38,462 nucleotides of DNA from an uncultured Eubacteriales bacterium (GTDB lineage: Bacteria > Bacillota > Clostridia > Christensenellales > Aristaeellaceae), in NCBI GenBank assembly GCA_902778995.1, contig CACYZW010000016.1, positions 1 to 38,462 on the forward strand, written 5' to 3'. The translations under genes and the position numbers were made by a program. Below, piece after piece: positions 23,744 to 37,694 of this stretch. Each line of letters starts with the position of its first letter. Position 1 is the stretch's first letter. Below the pieces are notes generated by a model that did no database searches, had not been told where the DNA came from, and saw nothing but the letters and a program-made list of their open reading frames with translations.

Positions 23744-24421
23744 TTAATATCCGTCTGTTTTCAGGCTTCCGCGCTCCATCCGATAGATCCGGGTCCCGTA
23801 GGGCAGCGCTTCGCTGTCGTGCGTCACCAGCAACACCGTCTTGCCGTCCTCCACGGCCGACCTGCGCAGCAGCGCCAGCACCGCCCGGGTGTTTTCATCG
23901 TCCAGATCGCCCGTTGGCTCGTCCGCCAGGATGATTTCAGGATTCCCCGCCAGGGCGCGGGCGATGGCCATGCGGCGCAGCTCGCCGCCGGAAAGCTCGG
24001 CGGGACGGGCGTCCCTGAGCTCGGCCATGCCGAGCGCTTCCAGCCAGCCAAGCGCGCGCTTCGCGTCGCCCTTTTCGCCGCGCAGCTGCTGCGGCAGCAG
24101 CACGTTTTCCAGCACGCCAAGGGTGTCGACGGCGCTTCTGCCCTGCGGGATCACGCCGAGCTTCGCATTTCGCAGCCGCGAAAGCGGCCCGTCCGGCAGC
24201 GCGTATATGTCCGTATCGCCCAACCAAACCCGGCCCTCGGTGGGCGTCAGCAGTCCCGCCAGCATGTTGAGCAGCGTCGTCTTGCCAGAGCCGGAGCGCC
24301 CCACCAGCAGCGTGACCTCGCCGGGGCGCAGGGTCAGGTTCACGCTACGCACCGCGAAGAAATGATTGGCCTGCCCCGTCTTTCGGAAATACTGCATGGA
24401 CAGGTTTTCAGCCCTCAGCAT
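23744..24421 (-). CDS. ABC transporter ATP-binding protein (MacB/LolD type), second module
   Basis: A 225-residue ATPase of the LolD/MacB group. Walker A GRSGSGKTT, signature LSGGELRRM, Walker [13 protein letters not shown] and H-loop VTHD are all present. It begins 2 bp after the stop of the permease gene at 24424 (GGGGG ribosome site overlapping that stop), so the two form one transporter. As part of the iron locus it may power extrusion or conformational work by the FtsX-like permease rather than transport through it. The open frame upstream of the ATG at 24421 overlaps the permease gene and is not used. Confidence 0.9.
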   Translation of the reverse strand: MLRAENLSMQYFRKTGQANHFFAVRSVNLTLRPGEVTLLVGRSGSGKTTLLNMLAGLLTPTEGRVWLGDTDIYALPDGPLSRLRNAKLGVIPQGRSAVDTLGVLENVLLPQQLRGEKGDAKRALGWLEALGMAELRDARPAELSGGELRRMAIARALAGNPEIILADEPTGDLDDENTRAVLALLRRSAVEDGKTVLLVTHDSEALPYGTRIYRMERGSLKTDGY

Positions 24422-24423
24422 GT

Positions 24424-25623
24424 TCACGCCCCCTCTCTCAGCGTCGTGCCGGGGTCGGTGCGGCTCAATCGAGCCGCCGCCCACGTTCCCGCCAGCAGCC
24501 CGACCAGCAGCGTCGCCAGGATCGTGCCACCCGCCAGCTTCAAAAGCGTTCCCGCAGACGGCGTCAGGTACGGCAGGCCCATTTGCTTCTCGATCAGCGT
24601 CGCAAACGGGAAAACGCCCAGCGCCGCGATCCCAACGCCGACGAGCGCCCCTGCGAGGCTGCACAGCGCCGTCTCCAGGAGGATTTCCCCGCGCAGCCCG
24701 CGCCGGGACGCGCCCAGCAGTCTCAGCACCGCAAATTCCCGCCGCCGCTCGTGAATCATCATGGCGAAGGCCACCAGCAGGATCGCCAGCGCCAGCGCCC
24801 ACACCGCGCCGATCAGCGCCAGGGCAGCGCGGGAGATGCCGGAGAGGCTGTCGGACACGTCGGTAAACATGCTGCGGGCGCGCACGGCGGTGACCTTGCG
24901 GATGTGCCCGTTCAACCAGTTGTTGACCTGTCCCGCGTCATATCCGTCCTTCACCTTCACATATACGGCGGAGATCACATCGGAGCCGCTGGTGATTCTG
25001 TGGCTCACGCCCTTCGCCTCCGCTGCGGCCAGCAGCTTTTCCATGGTGTCCATGTTGCAGTAGACCGCCGTGTCCAGCCCCGTGCCGGTCTCGGCCAGCT
25101 TTGCCACCACGTGGGTGCCCTGATCGTAGATTTTGAGCGTCTCCCCCACGCCCGCCGTGACCCTGCAGCCCACGGCAACCTCCATGTCGCCGAGGGTCCG
25201 CGAGTAGCTTTCTTCGATCCACGGCTTCACGGTGAAGTCCGCGTCGGGGTCGATGCCGATGATCTGCACCTTTATGGCGCAACAGTCGGCCTTCAGCGAG
25301 GCCAGGAAGGTCTGCGGCGCGGCGATTTCCACGCCCTGTGCGCCGCGCACCGCTTCCAGCACGGAGGCGTCCATGTAGAATGCGCCTGCAGTGCCCTGCA
25401 ACATCAGGTTTTTGAAGCTGACCTTGCTCTCGGCCTCGGCAGGCATCACGATGATGTCCGCGCCCAGCCGCGCCTCCAGGCTCCCGAGGCCGCTGCGCAG
25501 CGAACCGAGCACCACTGAGCCGCCGAACACCGACGCCGCCAGCAGCGCCGTCAGCAGGATCAGCGCCGCCGTGCGCCCGGGTTTCCTGAGAAGGTTCTTT
25601 ATCGCCAGATGAGCGCTTCCCAT
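24424..25623 (-). CDS. FtsX/MacB-type ABC permease, second module
   Basis: A 399-residue permease with the MacB layout: one membrane helix near residues 14-36 (GRTAALILLTALLAASVFGG), a large outside domain (about 40-265), then three C-terminal helices with the coupling motif ERRREFAVLRLLGASRRGL. It works with the ATPase at 23744 and the small DUF4418 protein just upstream. It is related to, but distinct from, the two permeases at 26886 and 28342. The substrate is unknown; in this setting a role in iron or envelope redox is inferred. The start overlaps the ribosome site behind the DUF4418 stop. Confidence 0.88.
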   Translation of the reverse strand: MGSAHLAIKNLLRKPGRTAALILLTALLAASVFGGSVVLGSLRSGLGSLEARLGADIIVMPAEAESKVSFKNLMLQGTAGAFYMDASVLEAVRGAQGVEIAAPQTFLASLKADCCAIKVQIIGIDPDADFTVKPWIEESYSRTLGDMEVAVGCRVTAGVGETLKIYDQGTHVVAKLAETGTGLDTAVYCNMDTMEKLLAAAEAKGVSHRITSGSDVISAVYVKVKDGYDAGQVNNWLNGHIRKVTAVRARSMFTDVSDSLSGISRAALALIGAVWALALAILLVAFAMMIHERRREFAVLRLLGASRRGLRGEILLETALCSLAGALVGVGIAALGVFPFATLIEKQMGLPYLTPSAGTLLKLAGGTILATLLVGLLAGTWAAARLSRTDPGTTLREGA

Positions 25624-25626
25624 ACC

Positions 25627-26019
25627 CTACCGCTCCCCCCTGCGCGCCAGCAGCCAGCCGACGAGCGACGCGAGCAGCGCCGCGCCAAACAGGATCATCA
25701 TCGCGGGCCGGGTCAGCATGCGGCAGCGCATGGTCGGCGCCTTGCACAGCGCGATCAACGGGCCGGGCGTCAGCAGCCCCAGCAGCGACGCACAGAGCAT
25801 CGCCAGGTACAGTCCTGCGCGCTCCTTTTTCAACGCCAATGCCATGAGCGACAGGACCGCCGTCAATGCGCCTTCGCCGAGCAACGCCCGACAGGCCCAA
25901 TGGCAAGCGCCGAAGCTGCCGTCCTCGTGGACGCACGCGCCGAGGAAGGTCTGGCTGCCGACGGCGGCGAGCATTGACAGTGCAAGTATGATTATCGCAG
26001 GAAAACACGATTTCTTCAC
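25627..26019 (-). CDS. DUF4418-family membrane protein
   Basis: A 130-residue protein with four hydrophobic segments and the cysteine-rich ACHWACRALLGEG stretch that marks DUF4418. Further cysteines occur in GACVHEDGSFG and ALCKAPTMRCR, so metal or redox chemistry on the outer face is plausible but unproven. It lies 3 bp before an FtsX-like permease on the same strand, and DUF4418 is often seen in that setting. Two GTG starts are possible: 26028 with a weak site, or 26019 with AGGTGA in range, which I prefer because the product then begins VKKSCFPAIIILAL. Confidence 0.8.
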   Translation of the reverse strand: MKKSCFPAIIILALSMLAAVGSQTFLGACVHEDGSFGACHWACRALLGEGALTAVLSLMALALKKERAGLYLAMLCASLLGLLTPGPLIALCKAPTMRCRMLTRPAMMILFGAALLASLVGWLLARRGER

Positions 26020-26040
26020 GGGAATCACCTGTCTTTCTAC

Positions 26041-26217
26041 TTAGGAATGAGAAATGAGGAATTGTTGAAGAAATTCTTGCGGATTTCTTTATTCAAACAT
26101 GAGAATCAATGGTATTACGTTGTATATGCCATTCAATCTGAGCAAATCCCGAAGGAATTTGCACCACCATTCCTAACTCCCCATTCCCCATTCCTCATTC
26201 CTAATTCCTCATTCCTC
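26041..26217. repeat. AT-rich imperfect palindrome of about 177 bp
   Basis: The left end starts TTAGGAATGAGAAATGAGGA and its complement returns at 26181-26204 with about 21 of 24 matches. Inside, AAATTCTTGCGGATTT pairs with AAATCCCGAAGGAATTT, and AATGG with CCATT. The right end is a run of CATTCCTC-type 7-8-mers. The base composition is much lower in GC than the genes on either side. It separates the two ABC modules, and supplies the last codons and stop of the upstream ATPase gene. Confidence 0.75.
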
Positions 26218-26883
26218 AAACCCCTCGTTCACCACTTCCCGCGCCACCTTGCCGTGCTCCAGCACGATGGTGCGCTGGGCGGCTTCAGCGACCTCGGGAT
26301 CGTGGGTCACGACGATCAGCGTGGTGCCCTCGCGGTGCAGCTGGCGGAACAGGTCGAGCACGATGTTTTCGTTGGCCTCGTCCAGGTTGCCGGTGGGTTC
26401 GTCGGCGAGGATCAGCTCGGGGTGATTGATGAGCGCCCGCGCCACGCAAACCCGCTGCTGCTCGCCGCCGGAGAGCTGGCTGGGCAGGTGCTTCGCCCGC
26501 TCCCGCAGGCCGACGCGGCCCAGCGCCTCGAGGGCTTCCTCCTCATCGGGCATGGAGTGGTAGTACTGCGAGACCATCACGTTCTCCACGGCGGTCAGGT
26601 AGGTGACCATGTGGAACTGCTGAAAGATCAGGCCGATCTTGTCCCGCCGAATATCGGTCAGCCGCTTGCTCGAGGGCTTCGAGATGTCCTCGCCGTCCAG
26701 CAGCACCTCGCCCCTGGTGGGCTTGTCCATGCAGCCGATGATGTTCATCATCGTGGATTTGCCGGAACCGGAGGGACCCATGATGGCGACCCACTCGCCC
26801 TTTTCCACGCGGATGCTCACGTTGTCCAGCGCCTTCAGTTCGCCGTAGATTTTGGAAACATTCTTCAATTCGAGAAGCGCCAT
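26209..26883 (-). CDS. ABC transporter ATP-binding protein (MacB/LolD type) of iron locus
   Basis: A 224-residue ATPase: Walker [11 protein letters not shown]-loop FQQFH, signature LSGGEQQRV, Walker [14 protein letters not shown]-loop VTHD. It follows the permease at 26886 by 2 bp and should energise the two permeases upstream. In the related Campylobacter Cj1658-Cj1663 region the equivalent gene is the last of the set. The C-terminal GFEE and the TGA are encoded by bases that belong to the AT-rich repeat, so the natural end of this protein may have been altered by that insertion. Confidence 0.9.
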
Positions 26884-26885
26884 GT

Positions 26886-28340
26886 CTATTCTCCTTTCAA
26901 CACCAGGGCGGGATCAATCGCCACGGCCCGCTTGATCGGCATCAGGCAGCTGGCAGCGGCAATCGCCATGGAAACCAGCACCGTAGCCGGCAGAAGCAGC
27001 GGCTGAAACGAAATGGACGAATTGAACACGTTCACTGAGACCACCTGGGCGAACACGAAGCCCAGCACCGCCCCCAGCACGCCGCCCAGCAGCCCCAGAA
27101 ACATGCCCTCGCCCAGGAACTCGCCGCGTATGGAGTTGTCCGACGCGCCCAGCGCCTTGCGCAGGCCGATCTCCCGCCGCCGCTCGGAGACCACCGCCAT
27201 CATCGTGGTGGACACGCAGATCATCGTCAGTATCAGCACGACCACCGTCACCAGGAACACCAGCGCCTGGAGCTTGCCCAGCACCGCCGTTTCCGACTTG
27301 GTGACGCGCTTAACCAGCCGCGCCGTCACGCCGTCGCCCGTGAGCGCCTGGGCGTAGGCGTTCAGCTGTTCCTCGTCCGCCGAAATGCTCAATTCCGCCA
27401 CGTCCAGCCGATCCTCGCCGGTCAGCGCCTGCAAATCGTCCGTGGACATGAACACATAGCCTTCCTCTTCGCCGCCGGTGACGAGTATGCCCGTGACCCT
27501 GTAGCGGGTGGTCCTCGGCTGCGCCGCCGCATCGGCGGCGCGGGCCCCGTTCAGCGCATCCACGACGGCTGTCGAGGTGATTGTCGCGCCGGACAGGGCG
27601 TCTATCTCAACATTCATTTGGAGCGGCAGTGATTTCCCCACAAACTGCTTCAAAAACAGCGGTTCCTCGGATACCCGCCCGCCGTACTCCGGCGTCTGGG
27701 TGGAGGCGTCGATCTGTATTTCTGCAATTCTCGCCCCATCGTCCAGCTTCGCCTTGACATACACCATGGCGTCGCCAAAGCCCTTGGCGCTGCCAGAAAG
27801 CGTCGCCCCGGGCTTCCAATCGTCGGAGGCTTCGCCCTCCGATTGCCGCGCCGTCGGCTGCCAGGTCAGCTCCATATCGGAGCCTTCCTTCACGCCGATG
27901 GTCTCTGCGATTTCCCTGCCGACCAGTATCTCGCGGGGCGCTTCGGGGTAGCGGCCCTCCACGCTGAAATAGGGACTGGTCTTCCGGATCTGGGTAAAAT
28001 CGGTGCCGGCGGTGGTGAATGACTGTTGGCGCGAAGTCATATCCAGCCGCACGTAGCGATAGGGCGAAGCGCCCACCAGCGCGTCCCCCGGCAGCTTCTC
28101 CAGCGCCGCCGCCAGCTTGTCCGGATTCAAAGTTTCGCCCGCCTCGGGCATCAGCAGCATGTTCGCGCCATAGGAACGCATCTGCGCGCGCATCTGCCGG
28201 GGCACGTCGTAGTAGATCGTCACCATGCCCGCAAGTATCGTCGCGCCGATGCCGATGGACAGCAGCGCGATCAGCATCCGCGAGCGCCGCCGAAGCAGCG
28301 ACGCGGTAACCATGCGCAAAAACATACGTCTCTTCGTCAT
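26886..28340 (-). CDS. MacB/FtsX-type permease with embedded FMN-binding domain
   Basis: A 484-residue permease. Residues 22-42 (MLIALLSIGIGATILAGMV region) are the first helix; 355-480 hold three helices and the coupling motif ERRREIGLRKALGASDNSI. In the extracellular part, residues about 183-268 read as an FMN_bind domain: AMVYVKAKLDDGARIAEIQI, FLKQFVGK, then DALSGATITSTAVVDALNGA. Thr253 in SGAT is the residue that ApbE would link to FMN in NqrC/RnfG-like proteins. I infer a transporter that carries an electron carrier on its outer face. It lies 2 bp from each neighbour in the FTR1/P19 locus. An apbE gene is not in the window. Confidence 0.87.
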   Translation of the reverse strand: MTKRRMFLRMVTASLLRRRSRMLIALLSIGIGATILAGMVTIYYDVPRQMRAQMRSYGANMLLMPEAGETLNPDKLAAALEKLPGDALVGASPYRYVRLDMTSRQQSFTTAGTDFTQIRKTSPYFSVEGRYPEAPREILVGREIAETIGVKEGSDMELTWQPTARQSEGEASDDWKPGATLSGSAKGFGDAMVYVKAKLDDGARIAEIQIDASTQTPEYGGRVSEEPLFLKQFVGKSLPLQMNVEIDALSGATITSTAVVDALNGARAADAAAQPRTTRYRVTGILVTGGEEEGYVFMSTDDLQALTGEDRLDVAELSISADEEQLNAYAQALTGDGVTARLVKRVTKSETAVLGKLQALVFLVTVVVLILTMICVSTTMMAVVSERRREIGLRKALGASDNSIRGEFLGEGMFLGLLGGVLGAVLGFVFAQVVSVNVFNSSISFQPLLLPATVLVSMAIAAASCLMPIKRAVAIDPALVLKGE

Positions 28341-28341
28341 A

Positions 28342-29637
28342 TCAGTGTCCTCCGTGCAGCACTTCCGCAGGCTTCAGGCGAAGCACCATGCGGATGGCGG
28401 GCAGGGAGCCCGCAATCGTCACCAGCGCGATCAGCCCCGCCACGATGGGGATGACCCTGGTGTTCATCTCGATGGCCGAGCCGAACACGCTGCGCCCGAT
28501 GAGCTGCGCAAAGCCGAAGCCCATGCCGTAGCCTGCCGCAAAGCCGATCAGCGCGGTGATCAGTATCTCCGTCATCACCACGCCGGTGATCGACCTGTCC
28601 CTCGCGCCGATGGCCTTCAAAAGCCCGATCTCCTGCGCGCGTTCCATGACGGAGGCGGTCACCAGGTTTGAGATGCCCAGCGCCGACCCAATCAGGCTCA
28701 GCGCCGTGATCAGGATCATCAGCAGCTTCGTCTTGTCCAGTATCGTCCCCTCGCTCTCGGCCACCTGCCGGACGGCGCTGGCCACCGAACCGGTGATGAC
28801 CTCCTGAATCTGATAGCAGATGGCGCTGACGTAGGCCGTGCAATACCAGGTCTCATAGTCGCGGCTGGTGAGCGCCGCAGGGTTCTTCGCCGCCCGGCGG
28901 GCCAGGTCGTTGTCGGGCGTGGTCAGCGCGGAGACTTCGATGGACGCCACCCTGCCTTCCCGGTCGGTCAGCGCCTGCACGGCGTCCAGCGTGGCGAAGA
29001 TCTGTTCGTCCTCGTCGCTGCCCGCGTCGAAGATGCCCACGATTTTCATGGCCTTTTCGCCGTGGCTGCCCGTCAGCTTCACGGTCTCGCCCACGGTCCA
29101 GCGCTTCCGTTCAGCCAGCAGCGCGCCGACCATGATCTCGCTGTCGGCGCCGGCGTCCGCCTCGTTCAGCCAGCGTCCGTCGGCAATCTCCCACCAGGAG
29201 CGCATGCCCTGTACGCCCGCGTCCAATTCCTCGCCGGTGGGCAGCGAAAGGTGATGGTTGAACCAGGTGCCGACCAGCTTCACGCCGTCGCCGTCCGGCA
29301 GCGTGACCTGCGCGTCGAGGAAGGGCGTGAAATCCACGATGTTGAACGCCCAGAATATGGTTTTGAGCCTGCCCAGCTCGTCCTCGCGCAGGTAGGCCGC
29401 GTTGAGCGCGTCGCCGTCGCCCACTTCGTAGATGTCCGACAGCAGCGAGGCGTCCTTCGGCTTAACGGTGATGTTCGCGCCGTAGTTTTTCAGCTCCTTG
29501 TTGACCTTGTCCTCCACGTCCATCACCACGTTCAGCATCCCCGTGGCCAGCGACGCCCCCAGCGCGATGGTGACGGCGATCAGCAGCATCTTGCCCTTCT
29601 GGTGGAACAGCACACCGCGTATCATTCTGAAAAGCAT
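28342..29637 (-). CDS. MacB/FtsX-type ABC permease of iron locus
   Basis: A 431-residue permease with one N-terminal helix (MLLIAVTIALGASLATGML), a large outside domain (residues about 40-300) and three C-terminal helices with ERAQEIGLLKAIGARDRSI as the ATPase-coupling motif. No FMN_bind signature is present, unlike its neighbour. The ATG overlaps the TAA of the DUF2318 gene by one base (TAATG), so translation is coupled. It probably pairs with the permease at 26886 as a heterodimer served by the ATPase at 26209. Confidence 0.9.
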   Translation of the reverse strand: MLFRMIRGVLFHQKGKMLLIAVTIALGASLATGMLNVVMDVEDKVNKELKNYGANITVKPKDASLLSDIYEVGDGDALNAAYLREDELGRLKTIFWAFNIVDFTPFLDAQVTLPDGDGVKLVGTWFNHHLSLPTGEELDAGVQGMRSWWEIADGRWLNEADAGADSEIMVGALLAERKRWTVGETVKLTGSHGEKAMKIVGIFDAGSDEDEQIFATLDAVQALTDREGRVASIEVSALTTPDNDLARRAAKNPAALTSRDYETWYCTAYVSAICYQIQEVITGSVASAVRQVAESEGTILDKTKLLMILITALSLIGSALGISNLVTASVMERAQEIGLLKAIGARDRSITGVVMTEILITALIGFAAGYGMGFGFAQLIGRSVFGSAIEMNTRVIPIVAGLIALVTIAGSLPAIRMVLRLKPAEVLHGGH

Positions 29638-30908
29638 TATTTGAACTCCTTTTCTCCGGCGATGAGGTCGGCCATAGCAAATACAAGATTGCCGCCTTCC
29701 ACCTCATAGGGAAGGGGTATCGGATTGCAGCCGCCCTTGAAGCCGATGGTGTTGGTGTTCATCACCACGTCGCAGCGGCGGCAGACCACGACGCCGCCCC
29801 GCTCGTAGTAGCCCGCGTTGCCGCAGACCTCGCAGGCGTCCAGTCCCACGCCGTAGGAAGCGGAATTGGGCTTGCGCACCACGATCCAGCGGACGTTCAC
29901 GCCGTTCGGCGTCTGCCACTCGAAGCGGTGCAGGTGGAAGTCGTTGACGGCCTCCATGGGGACAAGTATCCTGTCGCCGTCCTCGGTGAAGGTCTCCGGG
30001 GCGGACAGCTCGACCACGCGGGTGTCGTAGGCCTTGACGACGGTGAGAAAGCCTGTGAACAGCAACAGCAGCGCCATCGCGCCGCAGGCCGTGCGCCGGA
30101 AATGCCGGTTGCGGGCGCGCAGCTTGCGATGCTGGGCGGGATTGTCCCAGGGCTCCGTCACGCGGATGTTCTGTGCAAAGCAAATGATGAGGGAGGCCGC
30201 CGCCAGCGCGGCGGTGAGCCAGATGAACAGCATGGATTGGTAGGCGGTGAACATCATCCAGTCGCCAATCCAGCCGAAGCGCTCCTCGGTGTATTTGACC
30301 GACCATCCCAGCCACTTGGCCCTGTTGACCCAGGGCGCGAAGAATCGGCCGAAGCAGTAAGCCCCGTTGACCAGCATCCCCGCGGTCAAAAGCCCGTTCA
30401 CCGCGCGGAGCGGCCTGATATGCAAAGCGCAGTTGTACAGCATGCGCGAATAGGCGACGAGCAGTAGGAGCGCCAGCAGCCAGCCCGCCATGCGCACCAT
30501 GTAGTAGGACGAGAGATAGCCCTCGCCCATCGTGTTGAAGTTGAAGGGATACAGCATCACGCCTGGCAGCTGGTAGAAGATCATCGTCGCGGAGAACCCC
30601 GCGCCGGACAGGCACAGCGGGATTCTGTGCCACTTCTTCCCTGAAAACAGGCTAAAGAGGATAAAGGCCAGCGTGAAGCCCATGATAAAGGCGTATATAT
30701 AGTGATTCCAATGGCTGGATACGATCTTGTTGGAATTGCCCTTCACGGCGGCCAGCGCCGCCGACGCGATAACGCCGATGACGATACCCGCACCGTGAAA
30801 GGTGCGCCCGCATTTGTCATGGCGCCGCGATAATACCGCGTGCATCCAGGTGACCAGCGTCACTGTGACAAACAGATCCTGAGTGACTGTCCAGAGATAT
30901 TTCAGCAA
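29637..30908 (-). CDS. DUF2318 membrane Fe-S-type protein
   Basis: A 423-residue protein with about ten hydrophobic segments followed by a C-terminal outside domain carrying DACEVCGNAGYYERGG, VVCRRCDVVMN and FKGGCNPIPL, the cysteine motif of DUF2318. These proteins accompany FTR1/P19 iron uptake and are thought to handle electrons; Cj1660 of Campylobacter is the known analogue. I set the start at a TTG (30908, LKYLWTVTQDLFVTV) because AGGGAGG lies 8 bases upstream and the family starts this way; an in-frame GTG at 30983 lies inside a strong hairpin. A 15-bp stem hairpin precedes the ribosome site. Confidence 0.85.
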   Translation of the reverse strand: MLKYLWTVTQDLFVTVTLVTWMHAVLSRRHDKCGRTFHGAGIVIGVIASAALAAVKGNSNKIVSSHWNHYIYAFIMGFTLAFILFSLFSGKKWHRIPLCLSGAGFSATMIFYQLPGVMLYPFNFNTMGEGYLSSYYMVRMAGWLLALLLLVAYSRMLYNCALHIRPLRAVNGLLTAGMLVNGAYCFGRFFAPWVNRAKWLGWSVKYTEERFGWIGDWMMFTAYQSMLFIWLTAALAAASLIICFAQNIRVTEPWDNPAQHRKLRARNRHFRRTACGAMALLLLFTGFLTVVKAYDTRVVELSAPETFTEDGDRILVPMEAVNDFHLHRFEWQTPNGVNVRWIVVRKPNSASYGVGLDACEVCGNAGYYERGGVVVCRRCDVVMNTNTIGFKGGCNPIPLPYEVEGGNLVFAMADLIAGEKEFK

Positions 30909-30946
30909 GGGGCATGCCTCCCTGAGATGATTATTGCGCACGTAAT

Positions 30947-30981
30947 GCTGATACGTCATCCCCCGCGGATGGCGTATCAGC
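30947..30981 (-). other. Intercistronic hairpin before DUF2318
   Basis: GCTGATACGTCATCC (30947-30961) pairs with GGATGGCGTATCAGC (30967-30981) with one mismatch and a 5-base loop. There is no T tract after it on the minus strand. It may protect the downstream mRNA or tune translation, as it lies about 25 bases before the ribosome site. Confidence 0.6.
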
Positions 30982-31014
30982 ACGCTTTATTCAAACCGTC
31001 GCTTCAACGGCTTG

Positions 31015-31135: not shown

Positions 31136-31681
31136 TTACCACTCCTTGACGAACTTCCAGCCGGTCCACGTCACCTCCAGCGGTTCGGTCCAGAACTCGT
31201 CGGCCTCGACGCCGGTCTCGTCGTCCACATGCAGCAGGTAGCCGTTCTCGGCGGGGCTCTTGATGGACAGGGTCACGGAATACTCGCCCTCGGGCAGCGC
31301 GATGTTGTTGCCGTAGTGCGGGCCGTCGGAGGCCGCCATGGGCATCATGGAGCCGGTAACGACCTCCTTGCCCTCGCTGTCCTTGATGACGTAGTCGATG
31401 CTCAGGTAGGGCACCCAGCCGTCCACCGGAAAGCCGTAGGGGTTTTCGTTGGCGGTCAGGTCCACTTCGATGTGCAGGTCGGAGCCTTCCTTCGGGGCGG
31501 CCAGATCGGCGGGCGCCATGTCCACGGGCTGGAAATAGACCATCGCCATGGTCATGAAGCCGACCTCCTGCTCGCCCTCGACGCCCAGTTCATACTCGTC
31601 AAAGCCGGCTTCCTCGGCCAGGGCAGACGCAAAGACGCTGAGCATCATCACAGCCAGCAGCAGGGCAAGAAATTTCTTCAT
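31136..31681 (-). CDS. P19/Tp34-family iron-binding exported protein
   Basis: A 181-residue secreted protein. The signal peptide (KKFLALLLAVMMLSVFASALA, cleaved before EEAGF) is followed by the P19/Tp34 beta-sandwich with MTMAMVYFQPVDM, DLHIEVDLTANENPYGFPVD and SDGPHYGNNIALPEGEY. His, Met and Glu residues in these segments form the Cu/Fe site in known members (Campylobacter P19, E. coli FetP). It should bind iron outside the membrane and hand it to FTR1, encoded just upstream. AGGAGG is 7 bases before the ATG at 31681. The longer frame upstream to 31750 lacks a ribosome site. Confidence 0.9.
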   Translation of the reverse strand: MKKFLALLLAVMMLSVFASALAEEAGFDEYELGVEGEQEVGFMTMAMVYFQPVDMAPADLAAPKEGSDLHIEVDLTANENPYGFPVDGWVPYLSIDYVIKDSEGKEVVTGSMMPMAASDGPHYGNNIALPEGEYSVTLSIKSPAENGYLLHVDDETGVEADEFWTEPLEVTWTGWKFVKEW

Positions 31682-31766
31682 GGTTGTATTCCTCCTGAAA
31701 ATGTGATTTTTGTATCTGTAACGCCTGCCGCGCGGGGCAGGAGGCGTCAAGACCGGTTTTGAAAGC

Positions 31767-33542
31767 TCAGGATGCGGACTGCGCCGTTTGTTTCACAGTC
31801 CCCTGTTTCCCCTCGTACTTCGCGCGGAGGGCGTCGATCTTGCCGCGATAGTGGGCGATCATAAACGTCACCAGCAGTATGACGGCGAGGATCAGCTGCG
31901 GCACCAGCGTCTCAAGGTACGGATAGATGCCGAATACCTGAACGGCGTCGTTCTCGGGAACGCCCGGCACGCGCAGCGCCAGGTCGAACACATTGCCCTC
32001 GGCCAGCTCTTTGATGCCGCTTCCGAGGAAGGACACGCACATGATCGCCATCAGTATCGACGTGGCGGTGAAGAACACCTTGATCGGCAGGCGAATGGAC
32101 AGCTTCGTGATGGCCAGATACACGAACACCAGCAGCAGGCAGCCCGCGGCGAAGCCCGCCCACACCATGCCGGGATTGCCCTCGGCGAGCATGGGCTGGT
32201 AGAACAGCACCACCTCCGCGCCCTCGCGAAATACGGACAGGAACGCCGTAAACGCCAGCGCGAACGCGCTGCCCTGCGCCACCGAGGACTGCACCTTGCC
32301 ATCGATGTAGCGGCTCCAGCTCGCGGCCTCGGCCTTCGAGATCATCCAGTTGGACACATAGAACAGCACGCACACGGCGATCAGCGCGGTGATGCCCTCG
32401 ATGACCTCCTGCGCCAGACCCGCGCCCACGAACGCCCGCTTGGCCCAGGCCAGCACGGCCGCGGCGACAAAGGACGCCGCGATGCCGCAGGCCGCGCCGA
32501 TGTAAACGTTTTTGAGGCTGCTGCCGTTGCCCGACTTGATCAGATAGGCGATGATCGCCGCGATGACCAGTATGGCCTCCAGGCCCTCTCGCACAATGAT
32601 GCCGAAGGCGGCAAGAAAGGTGAGCAGCCGTGGGTCGGATTGCTTTTCCGGGGTGGCCTCAGTCTCAACAGCCTCCGGCGCCTCCGCCGCCTTCGCTTCA
32701 GCCTCCTGTTCGTCGATGCGCTTTGCCAGCTTCAATATGCTGTTCTTGGCCTTGTCGGTGGTGGTGCGGAACTTGTTCTTCTGATACTTCTCTTCGGCAG
32801 TGCTCACAAGGCTGTTCAGACCCGCGAACTGCTTGTCCATTCCCAGCCGGTCCGACAGCGAAAGGTCGGTATAGATTTTGTGGCTCAGGCCCGATTCCTC
32901 GTACACGCTGTAATAAGCCGTCTCCAGGTTGTCCGCCGCAGCGGTGAAATCCCTGTCCAGGTAGCCCATGTAGGCCGTGTCGAGCAGCTCCTTCACCAGC
33001 GTCGCAGCCTCGTACCAGCTTTCGTACTTCGCGGCGGCGTTGGGGTCGGCGGAATACTCCGGGTAGGGGTCGGCGGAAACCGGCTCGCCGCCCTTGTACC
33101 ACTTCATTTCACTCTGCACGCCGCCCTGCTGGCTGGCCAGCTTGTTGCCGTCCTCCCGGATCATGGCCTTCAGCTTGACCAGCGCGCTGCGCACGGAGAC
33201 GATCGTGTCCTGCTCGGTATTGTCCTTTTTGACCGCCGCCTTGCAGTTGGAAAACTGCATCTCCACGGCGTTCTTGCGGTTGCCGGAGATATAGCTCATG
33301 GTCTGCCGCTCGAATCCGGTGGTTTCGTACACCCGGAAATAGGCGTTGGAGACGTTTTGATAGGCGGCGTCGGCGTTCCCCGCCAGGTAGTCCTCAAAGG
33401 CCGTGTCCAGGTATTTGTCGATCTCGTCCGATGCGTCCGCCCAGCGGGTGTCCGCCTCGGCCATTGCGCCAAGGCACTGCGCCAGTAGGAGCAGCATCAT
33501 CATTCCAGCCAGCGCCAGCCGGGTGATTGACATGCGCTTCAT
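31767..33542 (-). CDS. FTR1-family iron permease with duplicated N-terminal outside domain
   Basis: A 591-residue protein. Residues 1-29 are a signal peptide ending AMA before EAD. Residues about 35-135 and 175-275 are two copies of one helical domain (compare LDTAFEDYLAGNADAAYQNV with LDTAYMGYLDRDFTAAADNL). From residue 307 on there are seven membrane helices with the two iron motifs REGLE (318-322) and REGAE (439-443) typical of FTR1/EfeU/FetM. It moves Fe into the cell. It is first gene of the iron operon, divergent from AraC- and DtxR-type regulators. The glutamate motif carries an A in the second repeat, as in many bacterial homologues. Confidence 0.93.
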   Translation of the reverse strand: MKRMSITRLALAGMMMLLLLAQCLGAMAEADTRWADASDEIDKYLDTAFEDYLAGNADAAYQNVSNAYFRVYETTGFERQTMSYISGNRKNAVEMQFSNCKAAVKKDNTEQDTIVSVRSALVKLKAMIREDGNKLASQQGGVQSEMKWYKGGEPVSADPYPEYSADPNAAAKYESWYEAATLVKELLDTAYMGYLDRDFTAAADNLETAYYSVYEESGLSHKIYTDLSLSDRLGMDKQFAGLNSLVSTAEEKYQKNKFRTTTDKAKNSILKLAKRIDEQEAEAKAAEAPEAVETEATPEKQSDPRLLTFLAAFGIIVREGLEAILVIAAIIAYLIKSGNGSSLKNVYIGAACGIAASFVAAAVLAWAKRAFVGAGLAQEVIEGITALIAVCVLFYVSNWMISKAEAASWSRYIDGKVQSSVAQGSAFALAFTAFLSVFREGAEVVLFYQPMLAEGNPGMVWAGFAAGCLLLVFVYLAITKLSIRLPIKVFFTATSILMAIMCVSFLGSGIKELAEGNVFDLALRVPGVPENDAVQVFGIYPYLETLVPQLILAVILLVTFMIAHYRGKIDALRAKYEGKQGTVKQTAQSAS

Positions 33543-33634
33543 TACAATTACTTCCCTTCTGCTTCCCTTCCCGCCGTGAGGGCAATCCCGTCTTGCAGCC
33601 CTCGCTTCAGTTTGTTAAACAAAATTAATAATTA

Positions 33635-33648
33635 TTAGTCTTTCCTAA
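33635..33648. promoter_or_regulatory. TTAG-N6-CTAA operator candidate
   Basis: TTAGTCTTTCCTAA, a DtxR/IdeR-like half-site pair, lies just downstream of the FTR1 promoter -10, at about the start of transcription, a repressing position. Confidence 0.45.
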
Positions 33649-33658
33649 TTCCATGACA

Positions 33659-33687
33659 ATTTTAGCATTATCTAACCGGCTTTGCAA
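33659..33687 (-). promoter_or_regulatory. Promoter of iron operon
   Basis: Minus strand: TTGCAA (33682-33687), 17-base spacer, TAAAAT (33659-33664). Only moderate match, consistent with a need for an activator. Confidence 0.6.
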
Positions 33688-33722
33688 TCCTGATATTGAC
33701 TTCTTGCTATCCTGATATTGAC
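33688..33722. promoter_or_regulatory. 13-bp direct repeat, activator-site candidate
   Basis: TCCTGATATTGAC occurs exactly twice, 22 bp start to start (two helical turns), right upstream of the -35 of the iron operon. AraC-family proteins typically bind such tandem sites, and an AraC-type gene is the divergent neighbour. Confidence 0.65.
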
Positions 33723-33739
33723 CACTTTGAATCTGCCGC

Positions 33740-33768
33740 TTGAAAAACATGTTATTTTATGCTAACAT
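33740..33768 (+). promoter_or_regulatory. Promoter of AraC/DtxR-type regulators
   Basis: TTGAAA (33740-33745), 17-base spacer, TAACAT (33763-33768) with TGC before it (extended -10). Confidence 0.6.
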
Positions 33769-33789
33769 ATATTAGTAAATTGAAACTAA
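33762..33789. promoter_or_regulatory. CTAA/TTAG palindromes over regulator promoter
   Basis: CTAACATATATTAG (33762-33775; 12 of 14 symmetrical) covers the -10, and a further CTAA at 33786-33789 adds a half-site. Together with 33635-33648 this suggests one metal-linked regulator acts on both promoters. Confidence 0.45.
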
Positions 33790-33811
33790 CAAATGTCGTG
33801 GGAGTGATTCG

Positions 33812-34174
33812 ATGGATTGCCAAAAGAAGACGGGAGCCTGTGATTCGCTCGTGGCGGCAGCGAAGGCGTACATTGAAGCGCACAGTCTTGAGAAGTTCTC
33901 GCTGAAAAAGATGTCCGAGGCGTTATACGTCAACGGCAGTTATCTGCTGCGACAGTTTAAATCCCACACCGGGAAGACGCTGCTGGAATACCACAATACC
34001 CTGAGATGTGAAAGGGCCAGGGCGCTGCTGCGCGATACGGATATGAGTGTTTCCGCAATTGGGACAGCTGTTGGGTTTGTCTCCTCCGCCCACTTTTCCC
34101 ACGTGTTCAAAAAGATAACGGGCTGTACCCCCACCGCATACCGCGACGCCTGCGGCACAGGCAACCGACCCTGA
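33812..34174 (+). CDS. Stand-alone AraC-type HTH regulator
   Basis: A 120-residue protein that is only the AraC double helix-turn-helix: FSLKKMSEALYVNGSYLLRQ then MSVSAIGTAVGFVSSAHFSH and FKKITGCTPTAYR. There is no ligand domain, so control must come from partner, amount or another signal. It diverges from the iron operon; a 13-bp direct repeat upstream of that operon is its likely site. It is followed after 13 bp by a DtxR-like gene in the same transcript. GGGAGTGAT precedes the ATG. Confidence 0.88.
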   Translation: MDCQKKTGACDSLVAAAKAYIEAHSLEKFSLKKMSEALYVNGSYLLRQFKSHTGKTLLEYHNTLRCERARALLRDTDMSVSAIGTAVGFVSSAHFSHVFKKITGCTPTAYRDACGTGNRP

Positions 34175-34187
34175 AAGGCAGGATACC

Positions 34188-34559
34188 GTGCTGAACAACC
34201 ATACGATCGACCGCTATCTGCACGCCATACTGACGCTCCAAAACCGCTTTCCGATCGTGCGGGCCGTGGACGTCGCCACCTGGCTTGAATGTACAAGGCC
34301 GAGCGTCAGCGTCGCGGTCAAACAGATGCTTCAGGAAGAGCTGATCAGCACAGGGCATCACTGCGCCCTTCTTCTGACTGAGGACGGCAGGCGGCGGGCC
34401 GACGCCTTTCGCGAGCGCTATGATTTTTTCCATCGCCTGCTCATCGAGGCGGGCGTCAGCGAAGACATTGCAAAAAAAGAGTCCAATGCGCTCGCATGTT
34501 CTCTGAGCAATCCATCCCTGGACGCGATCAGAAGATACTTTTTTCCTCCAGGATGTTGA
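34188..34559 (+). CDS. DtxR/MntR-like regulator with altered metal site
   Basis: A 123-residue protein with DtxR-family winged helix (IVRAVDVATWLECTRPSVSV followed by AVKQM) and a short dimerisation part (YDFFHRLLIEAGVSEDIA, then ALACSLSNPSLDAIRRYF). By eye, positions that bind metal in MntR (Asp8, Glu11, His77, Glu99, Glu102, His103) align with Arg, His, Tyr, Asn, Ala and Cys. If that alignment holds, it cannot bind Mn/Fe in the usual way; it may sense metal or redox through other residues such as Cys, or work without metal. The start is GTG with GGCAGGA upstream. It has no SH3 domain. Confidence 0.82.
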   Translation: MLNNHTIDRYLHAILTLQNRFPIVRAVDVATWLECTRPSVSVAVKQMLQEELISTGHHCALLLTEDGRRRADAFRERYDFFHRLLIEAGVSEDIAKKESNALACSLSNPSLDAIRRYFFPPGC

Positions 34560-34918: not shown

Positions 34919-35668
34919 TCATATGCCTATGTAGATTTCGCTGTCTGTCTCGATGATGTCGATATGGACGCCAAAGGCGCGTTCGATCCACGCGGTGGTG
35001 AGTATTTCACGGGGGGCGCCCCCGGCAAGGATCACGCCTTCCTTCATAAGAAGGAGGATGTCGCAATACCTCGCCGCCAGGTTCAGGTCGTGAAGGGTCA
35101 AAATGGCCATGCCGTCGAACCGGCGAAGCCTCAGCATCAGCTCTACGCGGTACTGTATATCCAGATGGTTTGTCGGTTCGTCCAGCAGTATGACCTCCGG
35201 TTGCTGAACCAGGCAGCGGGCGATCATCACCCGCTGGAGCTCGCCGCCGCTGAGGGTGCATACCCGTCGATCCCGCAAGGCCCAAAGATCCGTCTCGCGC
35301 AGGACTTCGTCAATAATCGCTTCGTCCGCGCGATCATAGGGCAGCATGACCTTTTTGTAGGGATAGCGCCCGGTCCGCACCACCTCCGACACCCGAAGCT
35401 CCGACTCCGCAAAGGTTTGCAGCTGCATCATTACCGCCACCCTGCGCGCGTATTGCCTCCGGGAAATCTGTTCCACAGGCACGCCGTCAATGCGGATGTG
35501 TCCGTTCGCGGGATACTGCCGGTACAGGTGTCGAAGCAGCGTGGTCTTGCCGGAGCCGTTCGGACCGATGACGCCAAAGAGCCTGCGCCCCTCGAAGCGC
35601 GCGGACACGCCGTTCAATATGCGCTTCTTCCCCACCGAAAAGGACAGCGCGTCAACCTCGATCTTCAT
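34919..35668 (-). CDS. btuD: Corrinoid/siderophore-type ABC importer ATPase (BtuD/FepC type)
   Basis: A 249-residue ATPase of the FecE/BtuD class: Walker A GPNGSGKTT, signature LSGGELQRV, Walker B VILLDEPTNHLD and H-loop LTLHDLNLAARYCD. It overlaps the permease gene by 17 bp, so the products form a complex. The family serves siderophores, heme and cobalamin; the cobalamin riboswitch in front of this set points to corrinoids. The symbol is inferred from that. The gene ends 30 bp before a terminator. Confidence 0.9.
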   Translation of the reverse strand: MKIEVDALSFSVGKKRILNGVSARFEGRRLFGVIGPNGSGKTTLLRHLYRQYPANGHIRIDGVPVEQISRRQYARRVAVMMQLQTFAESELRVSEVVRTGRYPYKKVMLPYDRADEAIIDEVLRETDLWALRDRRVCTLSGGELQRVMIARCLVQQPEVILLDEPTNHLDIQYRVELMLRLRRFDGMAILTLHDLNLAARYCDILLLMKEGVILAGGAPREILTTAWIERAFGVHIDIIETDSEIYIGI

Positions 35669-36674
35669 GGTAGATTCTCCGGATCATCAGTATGAACACC
35701 GGCGCGCCTATGAAGGCGGTCATCACGCCGATGGGCATTTCCTGTGGCGCAAAGGCCGTGCGGGCGATGGTGTCGGCCAGGTTCAGAAAGCACCCCCCTG
35801 CCAGCGCCGAGGACACCACCAACGGACGGTGGGAGGTGCCCACGACCCTGCGCATGATGTGGGGAATGATGAGCCCGACAAAGCCCACCAGCCCGGATAC
35901 CGACACCACCACCGATACCGCCAGCGCCGAGAGCAGTATCATCACGAGCTGCATCGCGCGGACGTTCATGCCGGACTGGGCGGCGGCGTCCTGTCCCAGC
36001 AGCAGCAGGTCCAATTCCTTTTCCAGCAGGCGGCAGAGCAACAGCAGCAGGACCAGCGCCCCCAGCGTCACCCGCGCGTCGGCCCAGTTGCTGCCGGAAA
36101 AGGAACCCGTCAGCCAGTATTGCGCCGAACGGGCCTGGGCTTCATTGTTCGAGGAATAGATGATGAGCGTCGTTGCCGCCTGGAAGAAGGCCGATACGCC
36201 CATGCCAGTCAGCACCAGGCGCAGGGGGCTGGTGCTCCTGCCCTGCAGCGCCACCACCAGCGCGATGGCGACAAAGCTGCCGACGAAGGCCGAGAACACC
36301 ACCCTCCCGACGGGCAGAAAGGCGAACCATCGAAACACGATGGCCCCCGCCGCGCCCGCGCTGGCCCCGGAGGACACGCCCAGCACATAGGGCTCCGCCA
36401 GCGGATTGCCGGTGAGCGTCTGCATCAGTATGCCCACGACGCTCAACACCGCGCCGCCCAGCACGCACAGGCACACGCGGGGCAGCCTGACCATGACGAC
36501 CAGATTGTAGAGGTTGGGGTTTGAGGCCTCGCCGCCCGTAACCAGCGCCCGCAGCGCGTCCAGCACGTCGCCGCTCGAAAGCGAAGCCGCGCCCCAGAAC
36601 AGCGAACCGAAGGCCGTAATGCACAGCAGCGACAAAAGCCCCGGGCAGATCAATCCCCGAAAGTTATGCTTCAT
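35652..36674 (-). CDS. btuC: FecCD-family permease (BtuC type)
   Basis: A 340-residue permease with about ten helices. RLPRVCLCVLGGAVLSVVGI, LAEPYVLGVSSGASAGAAGA, and VSGLVGFVGLIIPHIMRRVV are FecCD/BtuC hallmarks; the last is the ATPase-coupling site. It dimerises to let a corrinoid through. I chose the ATG at 36674; a TTG at 36683 is an option, and neither has a clear ribosome site, so translation may depend on reading through from the binding-protein gene. An attenuating hairpin lies just in front. Confidence 0.88.
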   Translation of the reverse strand: MKHNFRGLICPGLLSLLCITAFGSLFWGAASLSSGDVLDALRALVTGGEASNPNLYNLVVMVRLPRVCLCVLGGAVLSVVGILMQTLTGNPLAEPYVLGVSSGASAGAAGAIVFRWFAFLPVGRVVFSAFVGSFVAIALVVALQGRSTSPLRLVLTGMGVSAFFQAATTLIIYSSNNEAQARSAQYWLTGSFSGSNWADARVTLGALVLLLLLCRLLEKELDLLLLGQDAAAQSGMNVRAMQLVMILLSALAVSVVVSVSGLVGFVGLIIPHIMRRVVGTSHRPLVVSSALAGGCFLNLADTIARTAFAPQEMPIGVMTAFIGAPVFILMIRRIYHEDRG

Positions 36675-36689
36675 TGCTATCAAAAATCG

Positions 36690-36713
36690 GCCCGCAGGGC
36701 TTCCCGCGGGCCG
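36690..36713 (-). terminator. Attenuating hairpin between binding protein and permease
   Basis: GGCCCGC and GCGGGCC pair around a 10-base loop; on the minus strand GATTTTTG follows. It would lower permease/ATPase mRNA relative to binding protein, as is usual for ABC importers. Confidence 0.65.
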
Positions 36714-36725
36714 TGATCCGTTCGA

Positions 36726-37694
36726 TCAGTCGATGGTTACGCCGTGAATCTCCTCGGCCAGGCGCACCAGCGCGTCCACGCTGCGCACGCCGGGGCAGAT
36801 CTCGGACAGGCGCACGCGCACGAAGTTGCCGTTCTTCACGGCGTCCAGATCCGCAAGCGCGGGGTTGGATTTGAGGTTCTCCACCTTGGCGTCGAAATCG
36901 TCGGTATTGCGGATGGAGGTGGAGTAATCGCAGATGATGATGTACTGCGGATTCTCGGCCAGCACCGTCTCCCAGCCGGCGTAGTCCCAGGTCTTGTCCA
37001 CGCCCTTGCCGGAGAGGATGTTGTTCGCGCCGATGAGCTTGAGCAGGTTGGTGGTGTAGCCCTCGAAGGCGGTGTAGATCTGGTCGTCTTCGTCGGTGGA
37101 ATCGTAGATGAAGCAGGTCACCTCCGGCAGGCCCTCCAGCTTCGCCTGCACCGCCGCGAGCTTCTCCTTCTGCGCGGCGACATAGGCCTCGGCGGCATCC
37201 TGCGCGTCGAAGATTTTGCCGTACATCAGCAGGTCGTCAAACAGCGTGTCCAGCGTCGCGTCTGTGCGCAGCATGGACTGAGGCACGAAGATCGGCACGT
37301 TCTGCGCCACGATATCCGCGGCGGGAATGGCGCGCTGGGTGAAGGGCACCGCCCAGCCGGTGGTGAAGTCCGGCGCGGCCTCCATGAACACCTCGTAGGC
37401 GGGCCACTTCTCAGCCAGCACGGGCACCTTGGCGTAATCCTCAGCCAGGGGCTCGTATATCTCCTCCTCCAGGAAGGCGGTGCCGGCCATCCTGTCGGCC
37501 AGGCCCAGCGCCAGCATCATCTCGGTGGTCGCTTGGGACATGGACACGGCCTTCTCAGGCGCGGCATCCACGGAGAAGTCGTAGTCGTTGCCGTCCAGGT
37601 TCTGGCTCCAGGTCACGGGGTACTGGCTCTCCGCCGTCGCGACGACAGACAGGGCCAGCAGGCAGACGAGCAGCAGTGCAAACAGTTTCTTCAT
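36726..37694 (-). CDS. btuF: ABC importer binding protein (BtuF/FepB type)
   Basis: A 322-residue secreted class III binding protein. The signal peptide (KKLFALLLVCLLALSVVATA) is cleaved before ES; no lipobox. KAVSMSQATTEMMLALGLAD RM-type start, EKWPAYEVFMEAAPDFTTGW and NILSGKGVDKTWDYAGWETV are typical of the fold with one long helix between lobes. The ligand is not given by the protein itself, but the cobalamin riboswitch upstream makes corrinoids most likely; ferric siderophore is the alternative. GAGGG precedes the ATG. Confidence 0.88.
   Translation of the reverse strand: MKKLFALLLVCLLALSVVATAESQYPVTWSQNLDGNDYDFSVDAAPEKAVSMSQATTEMMLALGLADRMAGTAFLEEEIYEPLAEDYAKVPVLAEKWPAYEVFMEAAPDFTTGWAVPFTQRAIPAADIVAQNVPIFVPQSMLRTDATLDTLFDDLLMYGKIFDAQDAAEAYVAAQKEKLAAVQAKLEGLPEVTCFIYDSTDEDDQIYTAFEGYTTNLLKLIGANNILSGKGVDKTWDYAGWETVLAENPQYIIICDYSTSIRNTDDFDAKVENLKSNPALADLDAVKNGNFVRVRLSEICPGVRSVDALVRLAEEIHGVTID

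Follow-up and report, generated by a model that had tools for sequence, protein, structure and literature searches.

Results

The Locus and Its Genes

The window (the whole stretch of DNA that was analyzed, 38,462 nucleotides, contig C16) carries six genes on the same strand in the order FTR1, P19, DUF2318, unfused permease, fused permease and ATPase, and then an accessory cassette (Table 1). Permeases are called fused when they include an FMN_bind domain. The fused gene is separated by 1 bp from the gene of its partner permease and by 2 bp from that of the ATPase. The six-gene order from FTR1 to the ATPase is the one found in Campylobacter jejuni, genes 1649-1654, and in homologues from 33 species (PMC6083913); the C. 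jejuni genes were later named fetMP-fetABCD (PMC10783030), and Bifidobacterium breve has the equivalent order bfeUO-sifABCD (PMC5449479). Since the first six genes match the fet/sif order, the fused gene is fetC/sifC. The locus is the known P19/FTR1-type (fetMP-fetABCD) iron-uptake system and, by analogy, would serve iron uptake in this bacterium as well. The DUF2318, P19 and FTR1 neighbors named in the first-pass annotation were all confirmed by Pfam.

Table 1. Positions of the genes, domains and motif discussed in the text.
Feature	Position	Strand	Basis
FetC-like MacB/FtsX permease with inserted FMN_bind domain, 484 aa	26886..28340	-	Pfam and AlphaFold
Insert, residues about 168-272	27525..27839	-	alignment of 90 fused and 24 unfused permeases
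FMN_bind domain proper, residues 192-266	27543..27767	-	PF04205
Predicted ApbE flavinylation motif DALSGATITS, residues 247-256	27573..27602	-	
Putative flavin acceptor Thr253 (T of SGAT), codon	27582-27584		
FTR1/FetM-like iron permease	31767..33542	-	PF03239; REGxE motifs REGLE 318 and REGAE 439
P19/FetP-like iron-binding protein	31136..31750	-	PF10634, E=1.3e-48
FtrD-like/DUF2318 membrane protein (FetA-like)	29637..30983	-	PF10080; CxxC-x13-CxxC-x14-C
Partner permease (FetB-like), without FMN domain	28342..29637	-	Pfam, FtsX and MacB_PCD only
ABC ATPase (FetD-like)	26209..26883	-	PF00005
Accessory cassette: DUF4418 protein, third FtsX permease, second ATPase	23744..26028	-	Pfam

The cysteine pattern published for DUF2318 proteins, CxxC-x13-CxxC-x14,15-C (PMC6083913), was found in the FetA-like protein of the window, and all five cysteines are conserved at 1.00 in 67 sequences (87 thinned to 85% identity). 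A role of FetA as a haem conduit was considered and dropped because the histidines of its transmembrane part are all conserved at less than 90% in these 67 sequences. The genome encodes a second, short DUF2318 protein (181 aa frame) at C65:10917-11219 (L147), a contig other than that of the operon. The accessory cassette is tied to the iron system solely through conserved neighborhood. In the 50 fused loci that have at least 2.5 kb of sequence past the ATPase, DUF4418 is found nearby in 46 and the third permease in 48, and each of them is near in 3 of 18 unfused loci.

Other features of the window and its relatives were recorded. The N-terminal part of the FTR1 protein is long and contains an internal repeat (30% over 71 residues, E 5e-10), and the median length of the FTR1 open reading frame is 601 aa in fused loci (n=57, some of them cut) and 420 in unfused ones (n=19). 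Upstream of FTR1, inspection by eye located a near-perfect direct repeat, GTCAATATCAGGAT.GCAA, within 33543-33830 and, adjoining it, a divergent AraC-like gene (33812-34174). A helix-turn-helix-like protein is encoded at 34188-34559 and gave no Pfam match at 1e-5. Positions 34919-37694 code for a FecCD-type ABC importer with a Peripla_BP_2 protein; together these probably take up iron or haem and would be a second such system.

A Flavin Domain Inserted in the Head of the Permease

The fused permease combines MacB_PCD (residues 23-151) and FtsX (363-477) domains with four membrane helices predicted from hydropathy (22-40, 359-377, 413-431 and 448-466), which together with its head are the traits of a MacB/FtsX-type ABC permease. 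The positions of the first two helices make the region 41-358 a single head, which is expected to face the outside by analogy with other FtsX proteins. The first-pass annotation had placed an FMN_bind domain within this permease, and Pfam bore this out with a PF04205 match at residues 192-266 (40.7 bits against a curated cut-off of 22, E=4e-10). NCBIfam models of RnfG matched residues 172-268 with scores below their whole-protein cut-offs (43.9/205, 31.3/102 and 26.2/230). The acceptor motif Dxx[S/T]GA[S/T] is present as DALSGAT.

To delimit the insert, relatives were collected from 200 genomes of the window's family, from 79 loci on named genome contigs, and from regions flanking FtrD-like genes across the order and the phylum. 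The resulting 130 permease loci comprised 106 with and 24 without the FMN domain, and thinning at 98% left 90 and 24. The columns corresponding to residues 172-270 are occupied in 82-100% of the 90 fused permeases, and at no column between 168 and 272 do more than 4 of the 24 unfused permeases have a letter. The linker between the flanking strands measures 0-27 residues in 15 of the 24 unfused proteins and 111 in the window permease. The insert is thus about 105 aa long and lies in a loop joining two strands of the extracytoplasmic head, and it occupies this same FetC loop in all 90 fused sequences. Its presence agrees with the earlier annotation; the span of about 183-268 given there gives way to about 168-272.

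Conservation of the motif was equally clear. Across the 90 fused relatives that are non-redundant at 98%, no substitution occurs at D247, G251, A252, T253, S256 or A258, and position 250 is occupied by S (59), T (29) or A (2). The proposal that the domain ends in DALSGATITS, with Thr253 as the expected flavinylation site, therefore held, as did the GAT portion of SGAT as a conserved element in 90/90. An AlphaFold model of the whole permease (pLDDT 84) has a fold that matches the chains of LolCDE, MacB and FtsX, with an extra domain on the MacB-like head rather than the usual MacB fold alone. This domain, residues 172-270, was modeled as a confident separate unit (pLDDT 95.8), while its pose with respect to the permease is uncertain (pTM 0.60). 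The nearest solved structures of the domain are NqrC, RnfG and two ApbE-flavinylated domains, domain 1 of CbFMN4 and domain 2 of SaFMN3, which share its fold. The CbFMN4 and SaFMN3 domains are covalently flavinylated (PMC10339131). Among the 2211 pairs formed by 67 sequences, 786 had a dS of 0.1-1.2 in all three parts of the protein; over these pairs, median dN/dS came to 0.43 in the insert, against 0.33 in the remainder of the head and 0.13 in the membrane part. The insert is under purifying selection, yet it is the least constrained part of the permease.

Taxonomic Range of the Fusion

Within the family, order and phylum samples the fusion was seen solely in the window's family of gut bacteria. 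At E <= 1e-40 the permease profile matched 15 of the 398 genomes of the phylum sample; the match spans the insert only in the window genome, and in the other 14 it covers one or both flanks with nothing inside the insert. Six of the 297 genomes of the order sample matched, five of them fused and belonging to the window's family, and one unfused and from another family. In the family sample, among the matches listed (down to about E 2e-18), 62 of 200 genomes are fused, two are unfused and one is cut by a contig end. According to the match table, the 62 consist of 57 genomes with the permease in one piece (two of them cut at an end) and 5 with two overlapping pieces. The named fused loci, taken from the 79, come from metagenome bins, many of them ruminant, for which the taxonomic assignment is the submitter label (Clostridia, Clostridiales, Lachnospiraceae, Blautia, Oscillospiraceae, Ruminococcaceae or Christensenellaceae).

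The Insert and the Separate FMN Gene

A seventh gene past the ATPase codes for a thioredoxin in most Proteobacteria and for an FMN-binding protein in Actinobacteria, Firmicutes, Spirochaetes and Synergistetes (PMC6083913). At the window this Gram-positive FMN gene is absent: DUF4418 follows the ATPase, and contig C16 has no PF04205 match besides the fused permease. The same comparison was extended to 73 fused and 22 unfused loci, all non-redundant and extending 700 bp or more past the ATPase. Small FMN_bind genes (those of <260 aa) occur in 0/73 fused versus 10/22 unfused loci. All ten are Pfam FMN_bind proteins encoded directly past the ATPase, and two of these loci belong to the window's own family (G061, locus L145, and G121, locus L146). 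A Fisher test gave 6e-8, a value that treats the 95 loci as independent; since the fused loci form one clade or nearly so, it is closer to a single event than to 95.

The other 12 unfused loci have neither the insert nor a small FMN gene by our own FMN profile, so that flavin is not needed everywhere. In seven of them (L133, L134, L135, L137, L138, L140 and L115) the reading frames past the ATPase were also run against Pfam, and the remaining five (L116, L120, L128, L132 and L136) were searched with the profile. L115 and L120 encode further down a flavoprotein of 660 residues with FAD_binding_2 and FMN_bind domains (by Pfam in L115, by the profile in L120). Four fused loci have another large reading frame, on the opposite strand, that matches the FMN profile (L061, L065, L067 and, weakly, L077, E 0.002). 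In one unfused cluster the reading frame past the ATPase (L135:12713-13000) matches Cytochrome_C7 below the cut-off (E 5e-4); it resembles a c-type cytochrome of small size and may perhaps represent another kind of redox partner.

Origin of the Insert

Insert and separate gene never occur together, and derivation of the insert from the neighboring gene was therefore considered first. This origin was not supported by sequence identity, 60% between the window insert and a multi-FMN repeat of its own bacterial family versus 22% to the separate genes, nor by the domain tree. For these comparisons, the 90 fused rows were thinned to <82% core identity, leaving 27 embedded domains. The ten separate genes, with 11 domains among them, did not supply the best non-embedded match of any of these 27. 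In a tree of 92 rows, built from few columns by a quick search and with many open forks, the 27 embedded domains form one set (SH-aLRT 97) beside the multi-FMN repeats, and the separate-gene domains form another (SH-aLRT 96). The multi-FMN rows were chosen through matches of the family-genome search, so closer sources may exist.

The number of FMN_bind domains ranges from 3 to 9 in six of these multi-FMN proteins (L166-L171), of which L166 and L168 are cut by a contig end. L168, the one among them that was run against RnfG, scored above the cut-off. ApbE adjoins the multi-FMN gene in L166, L167, L168 and L170; in L171 it lies on a different contig of the genome, and no match to ApbE was obtained in G074, the source genome of L169.

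A permease tree of 49 rows, from which the insert columns had been removed, places the fused rows beyond one branch with weak support (60/5). As drawn, the fused rows sit among unfused relatives and one change is required. A starred set (100/100) groups two unfused permeases, L115 and L116, together with the fused rows. Either one gain or one gain and one loss could account for this history. On the simplest account, the fetC loop received a copy of a domain of multi-FMN stock and the locus lost its separate FMN gene. The insert would then have taken the place of the separate FMN gene past the ATPase, but from a different stock of FMN domains.

ApbE and the Supply of Electrons

ApbE, encoded elsewhere in the genome (C4:32143-32964), most likely would link FMN to Thr253. 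ApbE was found in 58 of the 62 fused genomes. The exceptions are G079, G142 and G167, which are 59-80% complete, and G160, which is 96% complete and counts against the ApbE-flavinylation reading. Co-occurrence with ApbE was rejected as support: the enzyme is equally common in family genomes without the fusion (125/138, and 183/200 overall) and its presence is no specific signal. In three genomes of the same genus (G086, G108 and G146) the distance from the fused permease to a downstream ApbE gene is about 7.1-7.4 kb. In G108 (L173), the one of the three that was run through Pfam, the interval encodes a protein that combines FAD_binding_2 with two FMN_bind domains. The window genome has a similar flavoprotein/ApbE pair on another contig (L148).

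Neither ApbE nor an electron exporter was found in the operon of the window. The RnfD/NqrB family is present in 56/62 fused genomes, in the window genome as a fragment at a contig edge beside RnfC. With ApbE and RnfD/NqrB found in these genomes, the parts for charging an outside flavin exist. A further protein of the window genome (L153:58-3507, contig C142; 1150 residues) combines three FMN_bind domains with a cytochrome c552 (NrfA-type) domain, and a ResB-like gene is next after it; it may be compared with the multi-haem RnfG of Christensenellales (PMC8238504).

The G160 genome also bears on the notion that the domain is a decoration, neither flavinylated nor engaged in redox chemistry. The same notion could draw on L115, L116 and L120, three loci that do without the insert although all have the DUF4418/third-permease neighborhood and the first two branch with the fused rows. 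We consider it very improbable in view of the motif, invariant in 90/90 sequences, the dN/dS below 1 and the absence of the separate gene from all 73 fused loci.

Discussion

A Possible Role of the Flavin in Iron Uptake

We propose, with a probability of roughly 55%, that a covalent flavin on the head of FetC serves the FetA/P19/FTR1 iron path and that ATP may move it. Once attached, the flavin would be charged by outside electron carriers, such as Rnf or another exporter and the multi-FMN flavoproteins, and would pass electrons to the cysteine/iron-sulphur domain of FetA or to Fe3+ on P19. Delivery of these electrons would let iron enter via FTR1, and ATP hydrolysis by FetBCD may shift the flavin between donor and acceptor. 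From flavin attachment through donor, acceptor and direction of flow to iron reduction, these steps are what we infer from the domain and its surroundings. A redox role in iron uptake, as the first-pass annotation had suggested, fits published proposals (PMC6083913, PMC8238504); the outside reduction of Fe3+ that it also envisaged is a putative step.

Genetic data from relatives are consistent with part of this scheme. Deletion of fetA, fetB, fetC or fetD in C. jejuni caused growth defects that track iron availability, and the authors proposed that FetBCD together with FetA are a route of reducing power (PMC10783030). In B. breve, sensitivity to dipyridyl and to phenanthroline was seen in mutants of sifE, which encodes the FMN protein, as well as in apbE mutants (PMC5449479). 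Ciclopirox, a ferric chelator, left the growth of sif mutants normal, and the sif genes were assigned by the authors to ferrous iron (PMC5449479), results that are a poor fit to a simple ferric-reductase role.

The insensitivity of the sif mutants to the ferric chelator tested also speaks for a different function, in which the flavinylated domain would be a redox sensor, or an oxidant that resets FetA or its cysteines, instead of a donor to Fe3+. In C. jejuni the protein at the position of the FMN gene, FetE, most resembles thiol-disulfide oxidases, and double-mutant extracts reduced DTNB faster (PMC10783030). FetE behaves more like an oxidase, and contacts between it and FetM or FetP were looked for and not detected (PMC10783030), so that electrons could run the other way. 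The location of the domain on an ABC head would suit a gating role. Thioredoxin and FMN chemistries differ, so that a direction of flow established for one is not transferable to the other, and the nearest known domains (RnfG, NqrC and multi-FMN proteins) are electron carriers. On balance we regard a sensor or oxidant as unlikely.

The ATP-dependent step of the preferred scheme can be questioned separately. The insert could be a tethered carrier for which the permease is a mere anchor, the ABC motor leaving the flavin unmoved. This reading, which is possible if somewhat unlikely, opposes the ATP-driven step and not the redox role, and its odds overlap with those of the covalent flavin serving the iron path. 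The ten unfused systems with an FMN gene of their own indicate that mechanical coupling is not needed there, and the pose of the insert in the AlphaFold model is uncertain. A lipid or a helix would suffice as an anchor; yet the domain is found in the FetC head loop in 90/90 sequences. At the other extreme, the transporter may be an ATP-powered flavin arm, a MacB-class ABC protein with a covalent flavin of its own on the moving head, in which ATP hydrolysis drives or gates the delivery of electrons to iron and no substrate is transported. We put this idea forward as a doubtful one. If true, it would explain the purpose of the ABC transporter in the widely conserved P19/FTR1 system, a transporter whose role was called unclear in the 2023 study of single genes in C. 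jejuni (PMC10783030).

A natural fusion of a redox domain and a permease suggests that flavin and ABC transporter act at one place. It also makes electron exchange between FetC and FetA/P19, and the role of ATP, addressable with one purified protein.

Comparison with Known Systems

FetBCD belongs to the MacB/LolCDE/FtsEX class of ABC proteins. This class spends ATP in moving its outside domains. Among the matches listed, the titles of 50 structure entries of the class make no mention of a flavin domain, and no description of an FMN domain in an FtsX/MacB permease appeared in the titles and abstract openings of open-licence PMC articles. The terms ABC, permease, FtsX and MacB have 0 occurrences in the available portions of PMC11334425. 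Within the literature searched (open-licence PMC, among the matches listed), the fused permease is an undescribed variant of a known system. The unusual flavin setting claimed at the outset holds for the insertion into an ABC permease; flavin in iron uptake was already known.

The C. jejuni system, fetMP-fetABCDEF (CJJ81176_1649-1656), shares with the window its gene order and the DUF2318 cysteine pattern. It differs in having the thioredoxins FetE/F past the ATPase (PMC6083913, PMC10783030), and no flavin domain is mentioned for its FetC in the available text of PMC10783030, where the words FMN and flavin occur 0 times. The Gram-positive B. breve shares the order (bfeUO-sifABCDE) and has an FMN-binding protein, SifE, past the ATPase; unlike the window, the FMN domain is a separate membrane-associated protein, and SifB/C are described with FtsX domains only (PMC5449479). 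Meheust et al. (2021) reported 260 P19-associated clusters with an FMN-binding gene, which have in common with the window the link between flavinylation, P19 and FTR1 (PMC8238504). In multi-flavinylated proteins and RnfG the domains are chained on a membrane anchor, whereas the window has a single insert in an ABC permease (PMC10339131, PMC8238504). What is new is the flavin domain inside FetC, a separate FMN gene in this system being already known. One position in the system is taken by thioredoxins, by a separate flavoprotein or, in the window's family, by an inserted flavin domain of other source.
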